Source: an uncultured bacterium (GTDB lineage Bacteria; Cyanobacteriota; Vampirovibrionia; Gastranaerophilales; Gastranaerophilaceae). From it: DNA of 48,245 bases. Positions 16,605 to 30,078 of this stretch are shown piece by piece. Location: NCBI GenBank assembly GCA_902796515.1, contig CADBOZ010000136.1, positions 1 through 48,245 on the forward strand, in the 5' to 3' direction. The position numbers and the translations under genes were made by a program. The notes under the pieces were generated by a model, which was not told where the DNA came from, did not search any database, and was given only the letters and a program-made list of their open reading frames with translations. Every line of letters starts with the position of its first letter. Position 1 is the stretch's first letter.

Positions 16605-17321
16605 CTACTTTTTTTCTACACCGGAAGCTAAAAGTCTGTATCCGCCACCATATATAGTCTGAATATATTTATTTTTTTCCGAAGATATTTTATCAATCTT
16701 GGTTCTTAAGTGAGTAAGATGAACTCTTATTGTATCTATATCATTTTCATCCTCATAGCCCCAAACTTCTTTAAGCAGGGTTTTTGCACTAACCATTGAA
16801 CCTTCATGCTGCATGAGCACATTTAAAATTTCGAACTCGATAGGAGTAAGACGTGTTTGTTTATCAAGAATTTTTACCGAATAGCTTTCGGGAATTAAAG
16901 TTATATCACCTTTTGATAATACTTCTTTAACCCTGAGAGATGTTAATTCCTGTCCCGAACGATTTAAAAGAGCAAGAACTCTTGCTTTAAGTTCATCAAT
17001 TTCAAACGGTTTAACCAGATAATCATCAACTCCCGAATTAAAGCCTTCAAGCTTATTATTTAATTCTCCGAGTGCCGTCAGCATGATAATGGGCGTTTTT
17101 GATATTTCGGGAGTTTGCCGAATTTTTTTTGCCACTTCAAATCCGTTAACATCCCCCATCATCACATCAAGTATCACAACAGACGGGGTTTCTTGTTTTA
17201 CAAGAGCAAAACCCCTGATAGGATCGGTTGAATAAATACAATCGTATCCGGCTAACTCCAGATTTATTTTAATTAATTCGCAAATTGCACTATCATCATC
17301 AATAATTAATACTTTATTCAT
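16605..17321 (-). CDS. OmpR/PhoB-family response regulator
   Basis: 238 residues. Receiver domain (1-118) with acidic pocket D8-D10, phospho-acceptor D52 in VILDVMMG, T81 in MLTALG and K103 in LVKPF. A winged-helix DNA-binding domain (about 140-235) has RLTPIEFEILNVL and YGGGYRL. No histidine kinase gene is next to it, so its signal source is unknown. It heads the operon with the processing protease and the GT-C protein, which suggests envelope-related control. Its promoter is predicted to give a leaderless transcript. Confidence 0.92.
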   Translation of the reverse strand: MNKVLIIDDDSAICELIKINLELAGYDCIYSTDPIRGFALVKQETPSVVILDVMMGDVNGFEVAKKIRQTPEISKTPIIMLTALGELNNKLEGFNSGVDDYLVKPFEIDELKARVLALLNRSGQELTSLRVKEVLSKGDITLIPESYSVKILDKQTRLTPIEFEILNVLMQHEGSMVSAKTLLKEVWGYEDENDIDTIRVHLTHLRTKIDKISSEKNKYIQTIYGGGYRLLASGVEKK

Positions 17322-17333: not shown

Positions 17334-17444
17334 TATCCAAAAACAGTACAAGTAAACTTAGTATAAAGTTTTAGCAACATATTTTTTTTACGGTTTTTAT
17401 ACCTGTTAAATCCCCGATTAACAAGAAGGTTTAAGAAAGTAACC

Positions 17445-19100
17445 ATGAAAATTCTTCCGATTTTAAATAACCGCATCTTTTTATATGCAAATAAAAATCA
17501 AAACATAAGATTTAACAAATTAAATAAAGACTCTTTTTCGTATTCGAAAAACAACAATAAATCGTACAACCAAAACAACTTTGACAGTATTATCTTTCAA
17601 GGTAAAAAATTACCTGTTTATGCAATAGATCATGACGGAAACTATTTGAAATTCAGTACACAAACAGAAGCGTCAAAAGTGCTTGGTATAGATAAAAATT
17701 CAATGAGCAGAATTATTGCGGGAGAAAGAAAAACAATTCCGGGTTTAATCTTTACAACACCTGATAAAATTGAAAGAAAAGATAAAGACGGAAATATAAC
17801 GGTTGATAATAAAGCGGTACGCGAAATAATCAAAGAAGCAGATGAGGGTATGATAAAATCACCTGTTTATATCCTTGAATACAACGGAAATTACACAAGA
17901 TACAGAAGTATAAGAGAAGCAGCGGGTGCTCTCGGCATTAAAAATTTAAAGCCCGGAGCAATTGCAGAAAGAAAAGAGTTTGAAGGATATGTAATTGCTC
18001 TTGCAAAAGATGTTGAAACAGAAGATGAAAACGGAAACATAAAAGCGGATAATAGCAAAATAGCAAAAATTTTAGATAATGCGTTTAAAAATAAAAAGAA
18101 GCCGATTTATATAATATCGCCTGACGGCAGTTATGAAACATTCTATACGCAATACGAAGCAGGTGACGGCATAGGGGTATCTCATCAGGCGGTTAATCTT
18201 GCATTGTCCGAAAAAATCAAATGTCTTAACGGTAAAGTAATAGCTTATGCAAAAGACATCGAAACAAGACTTGAAGACGGAAGCATTGTAGCGGACAATG
18301 AAAAAATCGGTAAAATTCTAAATAAAAAATTACCGAAAAGAGATGTAAAAGCAATCTATGCAATAAGCTTAGACGGAGAATATGAAAAATTTGCAAGCAT
18401 CAGAGCAGCTTCAGAAGCTTTGGAAATATCGGTAAACAAAATAGATGATGTTTTAAGAAAAGCATGTAAAACAACAGGGAAATACACATTTGTATATGCC
18501 GAAGAAATCGAACAAGCGGATAAAAAAGGTGACGTTATTATTAATCCGAATGATATAAAAAGAATAACGGACAATTGCGCCCGTAAAAAAGGCAGGGCTA
18601 TATACTGCATAGATTACACAGGAAAGTACAAAAGATATCCGAGTATACTGTATGCATCAAAAGAGCTTAATATGTACGGTACCGCAATAAAAAGAGCGCT
18701 TGAGGAACACACACCCGTAAAAGGATACTCATTTGCTTATGCTGATGAAATTGAAATTCCAACCGGAAAAAACAAAGAAACTATCGTATGTAAAACTTTT
18801 ATCGGTATTTTTCAAATGGAAGCAAACAGCAAATTCTTCTACGGAATTAATAAAGACGGTGAATATAAGAAATTTTTCAGTATAAAAGATGCATCGAAAG
18901 AATGTAACGTTCCCGCGCAAAATTTGTACTATATTCTTGCAAACAAAGTTTTAAAACCGCATGAAGGAATTATATTTATTCATGCAAATGCAATTGAAAC
19001 AAAAGACGAAGAAGGAAATATTACGGTAAGCAAAAAAGCCGTACAAAAACTTCTTGAAAATTTTGCAGGCAAAAATAAATACGAAACCGAAGCTTTATAA
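17445..19100 (+). CDS. Six-repeat NUMOD1-like protein without nuclease domain
   Basis: 551 residues. After an Asn/Lys-rich N-terminus (1-52) come six units starting near residues 57, 140, 220, 303, 385 and 465, a period of 80-83. Each opens with an aromatic beta hairpin (pattern V/I-Y-x-I-x-x-x-G-x-Y-x-x-F/Y), then a helix with x-x-E/D-A, L-x-I/V and a second helix, as in NUMOD1 helix-turn-helix modules. Most then have a hydrophobic strand ending YA-x-x-I-E, an acidic D-x-x-G-x-I turn and a helix. NUMOD1 modules bind DNA in homing nucleases, but no GIY-YIG, HNH or other catalytic domain is seen. Candidate roles are DNA binding or scaffolding. A weak AAGAAAG precedes the ATG. Confidence 0.7.
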   Translation: MKILPILNNRIFLYANKNQNIRFNKLNKDSFSYSKNNNKSYNQNNFDSIIFQGKKLPVYAIDHDGNYLKFSTQTEASKVLGIDKNSMSRIIAGERKTIPGLIFTTPDKIERKDKDGNITVDNKAVREIIKEADEGMIKSPVYILEYNGNYTRYRSIREAAGALGIKNLKPGAIAERKEFEGYVIALAKDVETEDENGNIKADNSKIAKILDNAFKNKKKPIYIISPDGSYETFYTQYEAGDGIGVSHQAVNLALSEKIKCLNGKVIAYAKDIETRLEDGSIVADNEKIGKILNKKLPKRDVKAIYAISLDGEYEKFASIRAASEALEISVNKIDDVLRKACKTTGKYTFVYAEEIEQADKKGDVIINPNDIKRITDNCARKKGRAIYCIDYTGKYKRYPSILYASKELNMYGTAIKRALEEHTPVKGYSFAYADEIEIPTGKNKETIVCKTFIGIFQMEANSKFFYGINKDGEYKKFFSIKDASKECNVPAQNLYYILANKVLKPHEGIIFIHANAIETKDEEGNITVSKKAVQKLLENFAGKNKYETEAL

Positions 19101-19112
19101 CGAATTTTATTG

Positions 19113-19118
19113 TATAAT
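19113..19118 (+). promoter_or_regulatory. -10 box 6 bases before the purB ATG
   Basis: A perfect TATAAT, then AAATAT, then the ATG at 19125. No Shine-Dalgarno sequence and no good -35 are visible. A leaderless purB mRNA is predicted. The box lies 13 bases after the stop of the upstream gene. Confidence 0.6.
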
Positions 19119-19124
19119 AAATAT

Positions 19125-20396
19125 ATGATTGAAAGATATTCAAGAGCTGAAATGTCAGCCATTTGGGATTTAGAAAAGAAATTTTCTTATTTTTTAGAGG
19201 TCGAACTTGCAGTTGTAAAAGCAAGAGTTAATCTGGGCGAATACACTAAAGACGTATATGACAATATCAAGAGTACGGCTAAATTTGACGTTAAAAGAAT
19301 TGATGAAATTGAAAAAATAACCCGTCATGATGTTATAGCTTTCCTTGAAAATGTTAATGAAAATGTCGGAAGCAAATATTCTCCATATATCCACAGAGGC
19401 CTGACAAGTTCGGATGTTATAGATACGGCGTTTGCTCTTCAAATTAAAGATGCTTCAAATATTATTTTAAAAGACCTTGATGATTTGATTAATGTTGTTA
19501 AAGATTTAGCATTTAAACACAAACATACGGTATGTCTTGGAAGAAGCCACGGCATGGGGGCGGAAGTTATAACTTTCGGTTTTAAATTACTAAATCTTCT
19601 TGATATGCTAAAAAGGGCAAAAGAAAGATTTTGTTTTACACTTAACGACATTCTTCAAGGACAAATCTCAGGCCCGTGCGGAACATACTCAAATATAAAT
19701 CCTGATATCGAACAAGAAACATGTAAAATATTAGGATTAAAACCCGCTAAAATTTCTACCCAGATAATATCAAGAGATAGACATGCCGCATTCATCGGTG
19801 CAATTGCATTAATAGGATGTGTTATAGAAAATTTTTCGGTTGAAATAAGACATCTTTCAAGGTTTGAAGTTTTAGAGGTTGAAGAAGGTTTTAAAAAAGG
19901 TCAAAAAGGTTCTTCCGCCATGCCGCACAAGAAAAATCCCATTGCAAGCGAAAATCTCTCAGGGCTTTCAAGAATTTTAAGAAGCAATTCCATTGCCGCG
20001 ATGGAAAACATTACACTATGGCATGAAAGAGATATATCCCATTCTTCCGTTGAAAGGGTAATTTTTCCGGATTCAACAATATTAATAGACTATATGCTTG
20101 CAAGATTTAAGAGCGTTCTGGAAAATCTTGTTATAAAAGAAGAAAATATGATTAAGAATACGAAAAAATATGGCGGGATAATCTATTCTCAAAGCTGTCT
20201 GTTAAAATTAACGGAGCATAATTTAACACGGGAAGAAGCATATAAAATAGTTCAAAAAGAAGCACTCGATGCAATGAAAACAAACGGAAGTTTTATTGAA
20301 AACATGAAAAAACATTTATCAAACGAGGAAATTAACGAATGTTTTAATGAAGAAAAATACCTGAAAAATATTGATAGTATTTTTGACAGATTTTAA
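19125..20396 (+). CDS. purB: Adenylosuccinate lyase
   Basis: 423 residues from the ATG at 19125, which gives the family start MIERYSR-EMSAIW; an in-frame TTG 15 bases upstream lies inside the promoter and is rejected. The superfamily signature SSAMPHKKN is at 263-271, with TSSDVIDTA at 94-102 and RSHGMGAE at 140-147. The enzyme acts twice in purine synthesis, releasing fumarate from SAICAR and from adenylosuccinate. No other purine genes lie nearby. Confidence 0.96.
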   Translation: MIERYSRAEMSAIWDLEKKFSYFLEVELAVVKARVNLGEYTKDVYDNIKSTAKFDVKRIDEIEKITRHDVIAFLENVNENVGSKYSPYIHRGLTSSDVIDTAFALQIKDASNIILKDLDDLINVVKDLAFKHKHTVCLGRSHGMGAEVITFGFKLLNLLDMLKRAKERFCFTLNDILQGQISGPCGTYSNINPDIEQETCKILGLKPAKISTQIISRDRHAAFIGAIALIGCVIENFSVEIRHLSRFEVLEVEEGFKKGQKGSSAMPHKKNPIASENLSGLSRILRSNSIAAMENITLWHERDISHSSVERVIFPDSTILIDYMLARFKSVLENLVIKEENMIKNTKKYGGIIYSQSCLLKLTEHNLTREEAYKIVQKEALDAMKTNGSFIENMKKHLSNEEINECFNEEKYLKNIDSIFDRF

Positions 20397-29466: not shown

Positions 29467-30078
29467 ATGCAAATCGGCAAAGTGAATTCTTGGGCGTTTA
29501 ACGGTGTTAATATCGTAAGAGTATCAAAGGACGTATTTAAAAAAGATAAGAGCGAACACAACATTGAATTTAACGATATATTGTGCGAAACAATTGAAAA
29601 AAACAATAATTTTAATTTAAAAGATAAATTAGGATTATGGCTTCAAACCAAAAAAGCCGTAAAAATATATGATGTACTGGAAAGCCCCGGTTACGACGTA
29701 GTATGTCAGATGTTGCCCCAGTATAAACCTGCACATGTTGATGCAAGCTGGTTAAGCATGCATACAAAAACACCGATAACCTTACCTGAAAGTGAAAATT
29801 ACCATAAATTTTATGTTTTAACGGGGGATGAAAAAAACAAAGCCTTTAGAGAATTCGGCTGGCTGAATTGCAAAAAACTTGAACATATTGCATCAAAAAA
29901 TTATGAAAAAACAAACGATACAATGACAAATACATTAAGAGAATTAGCAAAGCTGTCACAAATTATCGATGAAAGGTTTCACTCAATTATAGACGGAAAA
30001 CCGATTAAAGAATGGAAAGCTGATTCCAAAGAAGAATTGGAAAAAATTACGGTTGAAATTTATAATCAGAAAAACTAA
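29467..30078 (+). CDS. Hypothetical protein, 203 residues
   Basis: Not recognised. The N-terminus MQIGKVNSWAFNGVNIVRVS is short and polar with an F-N-G motif. The middle has LWLQTKKAVKIYDVLESPGY and MLPQYKPAHVDASWLSM, and the C-terminal half is mostly helical and charged. There is no signal peptide of the classical type and no membrane helix. GGGAAAG about 5 bases before the ATG acts as ribosome binding site. It stands alone between a terminator and the tyrS promoter. Confidence 0.72.
   Translation: MQIGKVNSWAFNGVNIVRVSKDVFKKDKSEHNIEFNDILCETIEKNNNFNLKDKLGLWLQTKKAVKIYDVLESPGYDVVCQMLPQYKPAHVDASWLSMHTKTPITLPESENYHKFYVLTGDEKNKAFREFGWLNCKKLEHIASKNYEKTNDTMTNTLRELAKLSQIIDERFHSIIDGKPIKEWKADSKEELEKITVEIYNQKN

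Follow-up and report, generated by a model that had tools for sequence, protein, structure and literature searches.

NUMODs are known mainly as accessory modules of homing nucleases. In I-HmuI, the HNH homing endonuclease of Bacillus phage SPO1 (PDB 1u3e), one C-terminal NUMOD-like domain follows the nuclease in a phage intron and the protein ends after this module, without a tail. In the GIY-YIG homing endonuclease I-TevI, a helix-turn-helix (HTH) is one of several DNA-binding elements of different kinds that follow the nuclease (DNA-binding domain, PDB 1i3j). In phage homing enzymes, NUMODs are attached through loose tethers, and the DNA sites that they contact can be as long as 30 bp (PMC3943268). 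DNA-binding sCTPs of Paulinella are organelle-imported eukaryotic proteins of a single module (<90 residues); they form an expanded family of more than 200 members, are reported to bind dsDNA, and show that a NUMOD-type fold functions in nuclease-free proteins (PMC12176269). The sCTP motif had been recognized earlier in NUMOD proteins of bacteria (PMC7729196). Code-like DNA-reading repeats such as TAL effectors are built from tandem, near-identical units with variable exposed positions in a DNA-facing element, and their paralogues vary in unit count. The open-licence literature text yielded no mention of NUMODs together with Melainabacteria.

The window analyzed here is a stretch of 48,245 nucleotides (contig CADBOZ010000136.1) from an uncultured member of the Gastranaerophilaceae. 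As judged from the open reading frame list, Pfam and a unit profile, a gene on its plus strand at positions 17445-19100 encodes a 551-residue protein that starts with ATG and consists of a leader and six NUMOD units. Direct reading of the sequence places a candidate ribosome-binding site, a purine-rich AAGAAGG stretch, immediately 5' of the start codon (17419-17444, plus strand). The self-built unit profile matched the protein six times, at residues 57-136, 139-217, 219-299, 302-382, 384-463 and 463-543. In Pfam, PF22083 (I-HmuI NUMOD-like) matched in five stretches (E=8.9e-33, 112.1 bits against a cut-off of 27) and PF07453 (NUMOD1) in three (E=6e-14, 52.2 bits against a cut-off of 22.8). The six NUMOD1-like modules that an earlier note had proposed from the DNA letters are therefore far beyond chance by independent Pfam models. 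The note had also described regular units that fill nearly the whole protein, and this description held: after a leader of 55 residues the units start near residues 56, 139, 219, 302, 384 and 463 and are 83, 80, 83, 82, 79 and 80 residues long. Each is larger than NUMOD1, with a NUMOD part of about 50 residues followed by a strand/helix tail of about 30. As the note had stated, a nuclease is missing; Pfam models detected no nuclease domain in any of 35 array reading frames (the window protein and 34 others), and HNH_3 had zero matches in this genome. The premise that NUMODs always come attached to a nuclease did not survive comparison with the nuclease-free Paulinella proteins; tandem sets of three modules also occur in phage HNH enzymes.

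Two AlphaFold models were used to assign the fold. The two-unit model (ten sequences; MAFFT had shifted the input unit-pair alignment, but the model was usable) had a pLDDT of 84.7 and a pTM of 0.50, and the full-length model (two sequences) a pLDDT of 69.9 and a pTM of 0.33. Both agree on the predicted unit: a beta-hairpin, two helices and a strand make up the NUMOD part, and the tail consists of a short helix or strand, a strand and a long helix. The best matches among solved structures were I-HmuI (Z 9.3, rmsd 2.1 over 56 residues), the I-TevI DNA-binding domain (Z 6.6, overlap with the HTH subdomain over 44 residues) and Paulinella sCTP-23166 (PDB 8b6e; Z 6.4, Foldseek probability 0.97-0.99, TM by target 0.66-0.81), all three of which are DNA binders, whereas the match to AcrVA3 (9kja) was weaker (Z 4.8). 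A 12-unit profile recovered I-HmuI from sequence alone (E 2.7e-5). The value for sCTP-23166 lies where fold alone is no proof of kinship, and the identity of sCTPs to the units is 12-26%. Both the secondary structure in the models and the match to 1u3e indicate that the unit has the beta-hairpin and HTH of I-HmuI, in line with the HTH per unit that had been predicted; the outcome that would have spoken against it, a protein with no NUMOD1 or HTH profile match, did not occur. The structure comparison touched the tail only marginally, and within this coverage it listed no other fold for it. The array differs from I-HmuI and the sCTPs in having six modules in series, and from I-HmuI and I-TevI in lacking a nuclease. 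With pTM values this low (0.33-0.50) for the placing of the units relative to each other, a rigid form of the solenoid suggested in the earlier note found no backing, and the models make beads on a string at least as likely. We propose that each unit of about 80 residues would fold alone as a NUMOD1/I-HmuI-type beta-hairpin and HTH, that its tail would join it to the next unit, and that the string of six could bind to an extended site on DNA.

The second helix of an HTH is the recognition helix, and its predicted position was located in each unit by combining the unit profile with the AlphaFold models (all plus strand). It occupies residues 84-91 (17694-17717) of unit 1 (residues 56-138; 17610-17858), residues 247-254 (18183-18206) of unit 3 (residues 219-301; 18099-18347), residues 330-338 (18432-18458) of unit 4 (residues 302-383; 18348-18593), residues 412-421 (18678-18707) of unit 5 (residues 384-462; 18594-18830) and residues 491-499 (18915-18941) of unit 6 (residues 463-542; 18831-19070). 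In unit 2 (residues 139-218; 17859-18098) this helix is poorly formed, with a pLDDT below 50 at residues 169-175, and the unit is possibly a degenerate reader. Variable peptides had been noticed before and interpreted as turns between units that might set base specificity. Their hypervariability was confirmed, but it belongs to the recognition helices: AlphaFold puts IDKNSMSR in unit 1, VSHQAVNL in unit 3 and VPAQNLYY in unit 6, each on the second HTH helix and not between units.

We compared the units by structural element, both within one protein and between orthologues. Between units of one protein, the exposed recognition-helix positions had the lowest identity of any element (11%, against 20-42% for all others), whereas between orthologous units the same positions were 66% identical, within the range of the other elements (65-78%). 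Divergence among units is thus greatest at the positions that would be expected to contact bases in a NUMOD helix, and it is inherited. Since surface positions are more variable than buried positions in any helix, the comparison is supportive and not decisive. Each unit of the window protein and its positional counterpart in the sister genome G276 were one another's best match, with values of 0.38-0.56 on the diagonal and 0.23-0.37 elsewhere. The pattern fits modules that would have different DNA contacts and are held in a fixed order; each recognition helix would bear its own set of exposed residues, with the order and identity of the units kept between species. Like TAL effectors, the arrays are tandem, vary at exposed positions of the putative DNA-facing element and differ in unit count among paralogues. 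Their units are only about 25-40% identical, unlike the near-identical repeats of TAL effectors, and they are HTH domains in what is probably a flexible series; a two-residue code of the TAL effector type was not evident in them.

A different reading of the same features is that the protein coats DNA as a low-specificity, nucleoid-type architectural factor, many weak modules binding or bridging with little choice of bases. Weakly basic modules in a flexibly linked series, an isoelectric point of about 9 in most array members and a freely varying number of units would all suit such a coater. It would have no need of distinct units in an ordered row, yet the residues of the recognition helix vary from unit to unit and are preserved in orthologues, and we regard this explanation as unlikely. 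The charge of the window protein bears on whether every module acts on DNA. As a sequence-level measure of a basic DNA-binding face, the net charge per NUMOD part ranges from -1 (unit 3) to +4, with a family mean of +2.6, and the tails are acidic on average (-2.2 across the array family). Because some units have a low or negative charge, not every unit need bind DNA. These charges and the acidic tails would also agree with a scaffold that uses the NUMOD fold to bind protein or RNA in place of DNA. We consider such a scaffold highly improbable, as canonical NUMOD signature residues are kept in 167 units and the three closest solved folds belong to DNA-binding proteins. We favor, with a probability of roughly 0.6, a nuclease-free tandem-NUMOD protein that binds a long DNA site sequence-specifically, perhaps as a regulator. 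The predicted DNA binding as such is well supported by the profiles and models, and the protein would probably act by occupying DNA, whether to regulate, to mark a site or to bridge. Against the favored reading stand the charge of unit 3, the other low-charge units, the poorly predicted recognition helix of unit 2, the low pTM for the placing of the units and the lack of a conserved neighbor.

The array gene lies in a bacterial chromosome with housekeeping genes on either side. A divergent response regulator gene (16605-17321, minus strand) and purB, encoding adenylosuccinate lyase (19110-20396, plus strand, 9 bases or slightly more downstream), form its context and are not part of the system; both are syntenic in G276, at 93% and 91% identity, respectively. 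On the strength of the housekeeping neighbors and this synteny we rejected a phage, intron or other mobile-element setting, so that the array departs from HNH and GIY-YIG homing endonucleases in this respect as well as in having no catalytic domain. Adjacency of purB and an array was restricted to this genome and G276, with no array adjoining purB in other genus members, and comparison of neighbors across genus members revealed no conserved neighbor or operon that would suggest which process is regulated. Identity between the array and its G276 counterpart is 44.5%, and between the two paralogues of this genome and their counterparts 58% and 65%, against 75-96% for neighboring genes. The dN/dS ratios were 0.14-0.37 for arrays and 0.05 for purB and the response regulator, with dS near or past saturation in the G000/G276 pairs and less so in the g20 pairs. 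The ratios for the arrays indicate that these proteins are constrained, that is, functional but fast-evolving.

Kinship with phage enzymes is visible in sequence. The nearest phage proteins, Lactobacillus phage LP65 gp143 and phage P2 g001, combine HNH_3 with three units that match the same profile; those of gp143 are 74-75 residues apart, and its unit 2 matches the tail too. Both differ from the arrays in being phage-borne, in retaining HNH_3, in having three units where arrays have up to nine, and in having no N-terminal leader. A nine-unit relative matched phage proteins only, mostly annotated as HNH, whereas a five-unit relative had no match in the viral_contigs set and the window protein had no relatives in the viral_contigs, phages or plasmids sets. 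The three-unit phage HNH enzymes suggest the ancestral architecture, and the most likely origin would be a phage HNH-(NUMOD)3 homing-type enzyme that lost its HNH domain and duplicated its units, followed by multiplication in one gut lineage. The protein looks like the targeting part of a cutting enzyme that has lost its blade and been multiplied into a lineage-specific DNA-binding family, and it is a candidate case of a host taking over the targeting part of a selfish enzyme. The alternative that the arrays are remnants or accessories of a selfish homing element, useless to the cell, draws on the same phage kinship, on a patchy distribution and on matches to the PADLOC homing-endonuclease model. 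We judge it improbable: the arrays lack a nuclease, sit among housekeeping genes in synteny with a sister species, have intact frames under purifying selection, and have expanded to as many as nine units and to clusters of up to six genes. A defense function was discarded, as PADLOC gave only the homing-endonuclease match and a weak match to mad1.

PF22083 matches occurred in 19 of 286 genomes of an order-wide sample, all from one taxonomic family, and a phylum-wide sample added one outlier; within the genus, the window protein was matched in 11 of 28 genomes. The distribution of the array family is patchy. The paralogues with differing repeat counts that had been anticipated were present, with six and three units in the same genome and two to nine in relatives. 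The fetched loci yielded 34 array proteins (fragments included) with 2-9 units, plus one single-NUMOD protein, together 173 units. By multiplying NUMODs into arrays that stand alone and reach nine units, this bacterial lineage provides some 170 divergent modules, hypervariable in the recognition helix, as a natural set for learning the base choice of the NUMOD helix. Some genomes have clustered array genes; the largest run, at L059:5612-13056 (G200:C1), comprises six consecutive genes of 3-7 units each on one strand and is apparently a tandem gene family. In the sister genome, a 631-residue protein at L053:2961-4853 (G276:C34) has repeated zinc-ribbon-like motifs, a stretch that by eye is endonuclease-like, and a single C-terminal NUMOD, which by eye is a conventional nuclease-plus-NUMOD layout.

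The leader of the window protein (residues 1-55; 17445-17609, plus strand) is Asn/Lys-rich, predicted to be disordered (pLDDT 23-28), and ends in IIFQGKK (17589-17609). A loose motif around N-[IL]-[STN]-F-x-[GA]-K preceded unit 1 in 27 of 32 arrays and internal units in 8 of 138 cases; a strict pattern occurred 18 times before unit 1 and twice before internal units. The motif as a component of the repeat was ruled out by its rarity before internal units. A position-specific leader score was enriched at the N-termini of unrelated proteins (16 of 720, against 13 of 2049 internal windows; p=7.5e-4, a rough value given mechanically called starts, a partial sample of stretches and the inclusion of related proteins), and a simple regular expression showed no general enrichment outside array-bearing loci. 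Leader-bearing loci besides the window are L124:7800-8840, L044:3710-5530, L061:12703-13902, L107:1373-3379 and L097:9300-10997. The general form is M-[KRN]-[IV], an Asn/Lys-rich stretch and N-[IL]-[STN]-F-x-[GA], and it is found on arrays and on unrelated proteins (an NTP transferase, a DHH protein). From these sequences it looks like a lineage-wide N-terminal tag, exposed by the work on the arrays.

Such a leader might direct export, possibly through the FlhA/FlhB-type apparatus of this genus, so that the arrays would act on the DNA of other cells. The placement of the motif before unit 1, its enrichment at unrelated N-termini and an FlhB-family protein in all 28 genus genomes (two in 24 of them) are consistent with this. 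We nevertheless consider export very improbable, as the same leader is present on seemingly cytoplasmic enzymes (the NTP transferase and DHH protein) and at least one of two export loci carries the flagellar genes FliE, FliF and FliH. A conserved sequence motif is also not a known feature of type III signals. More tentatively than the favored reading of a sequence-specific binder, one may join the observations: lineage-specific arrays might be independent readers in conserved order on long composite sites, placed by an undescribed leader that is shared with unrelated proteins, a combination that we hold doubtful as a whole. The two flagellar or type III-type export loci are at L159:7656-12701 (G000:C93) with L160:2292-3464 (G000:C116), and at L162:9177-17137 (G120:C1); one has no recognizable flagellar structural gene beside its export genes, and the other has FliE, FliF and FliH in G120. 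Elsewhere in the window, a 203-residue reading frame with zero Pfam matches (29467-30078, plus strand) has an N-terminus, MQIGKVNSWAFNGVN, that resembles the leader. Small, mutually related leader-bearing proteins adjoin array clusters at L055:11169-11579 (G179) and L049:6111-6473 (G109), and both contain a stretch, FYVISPDANLVKSPEGLYNY, that faintly resembles the start of a unit.
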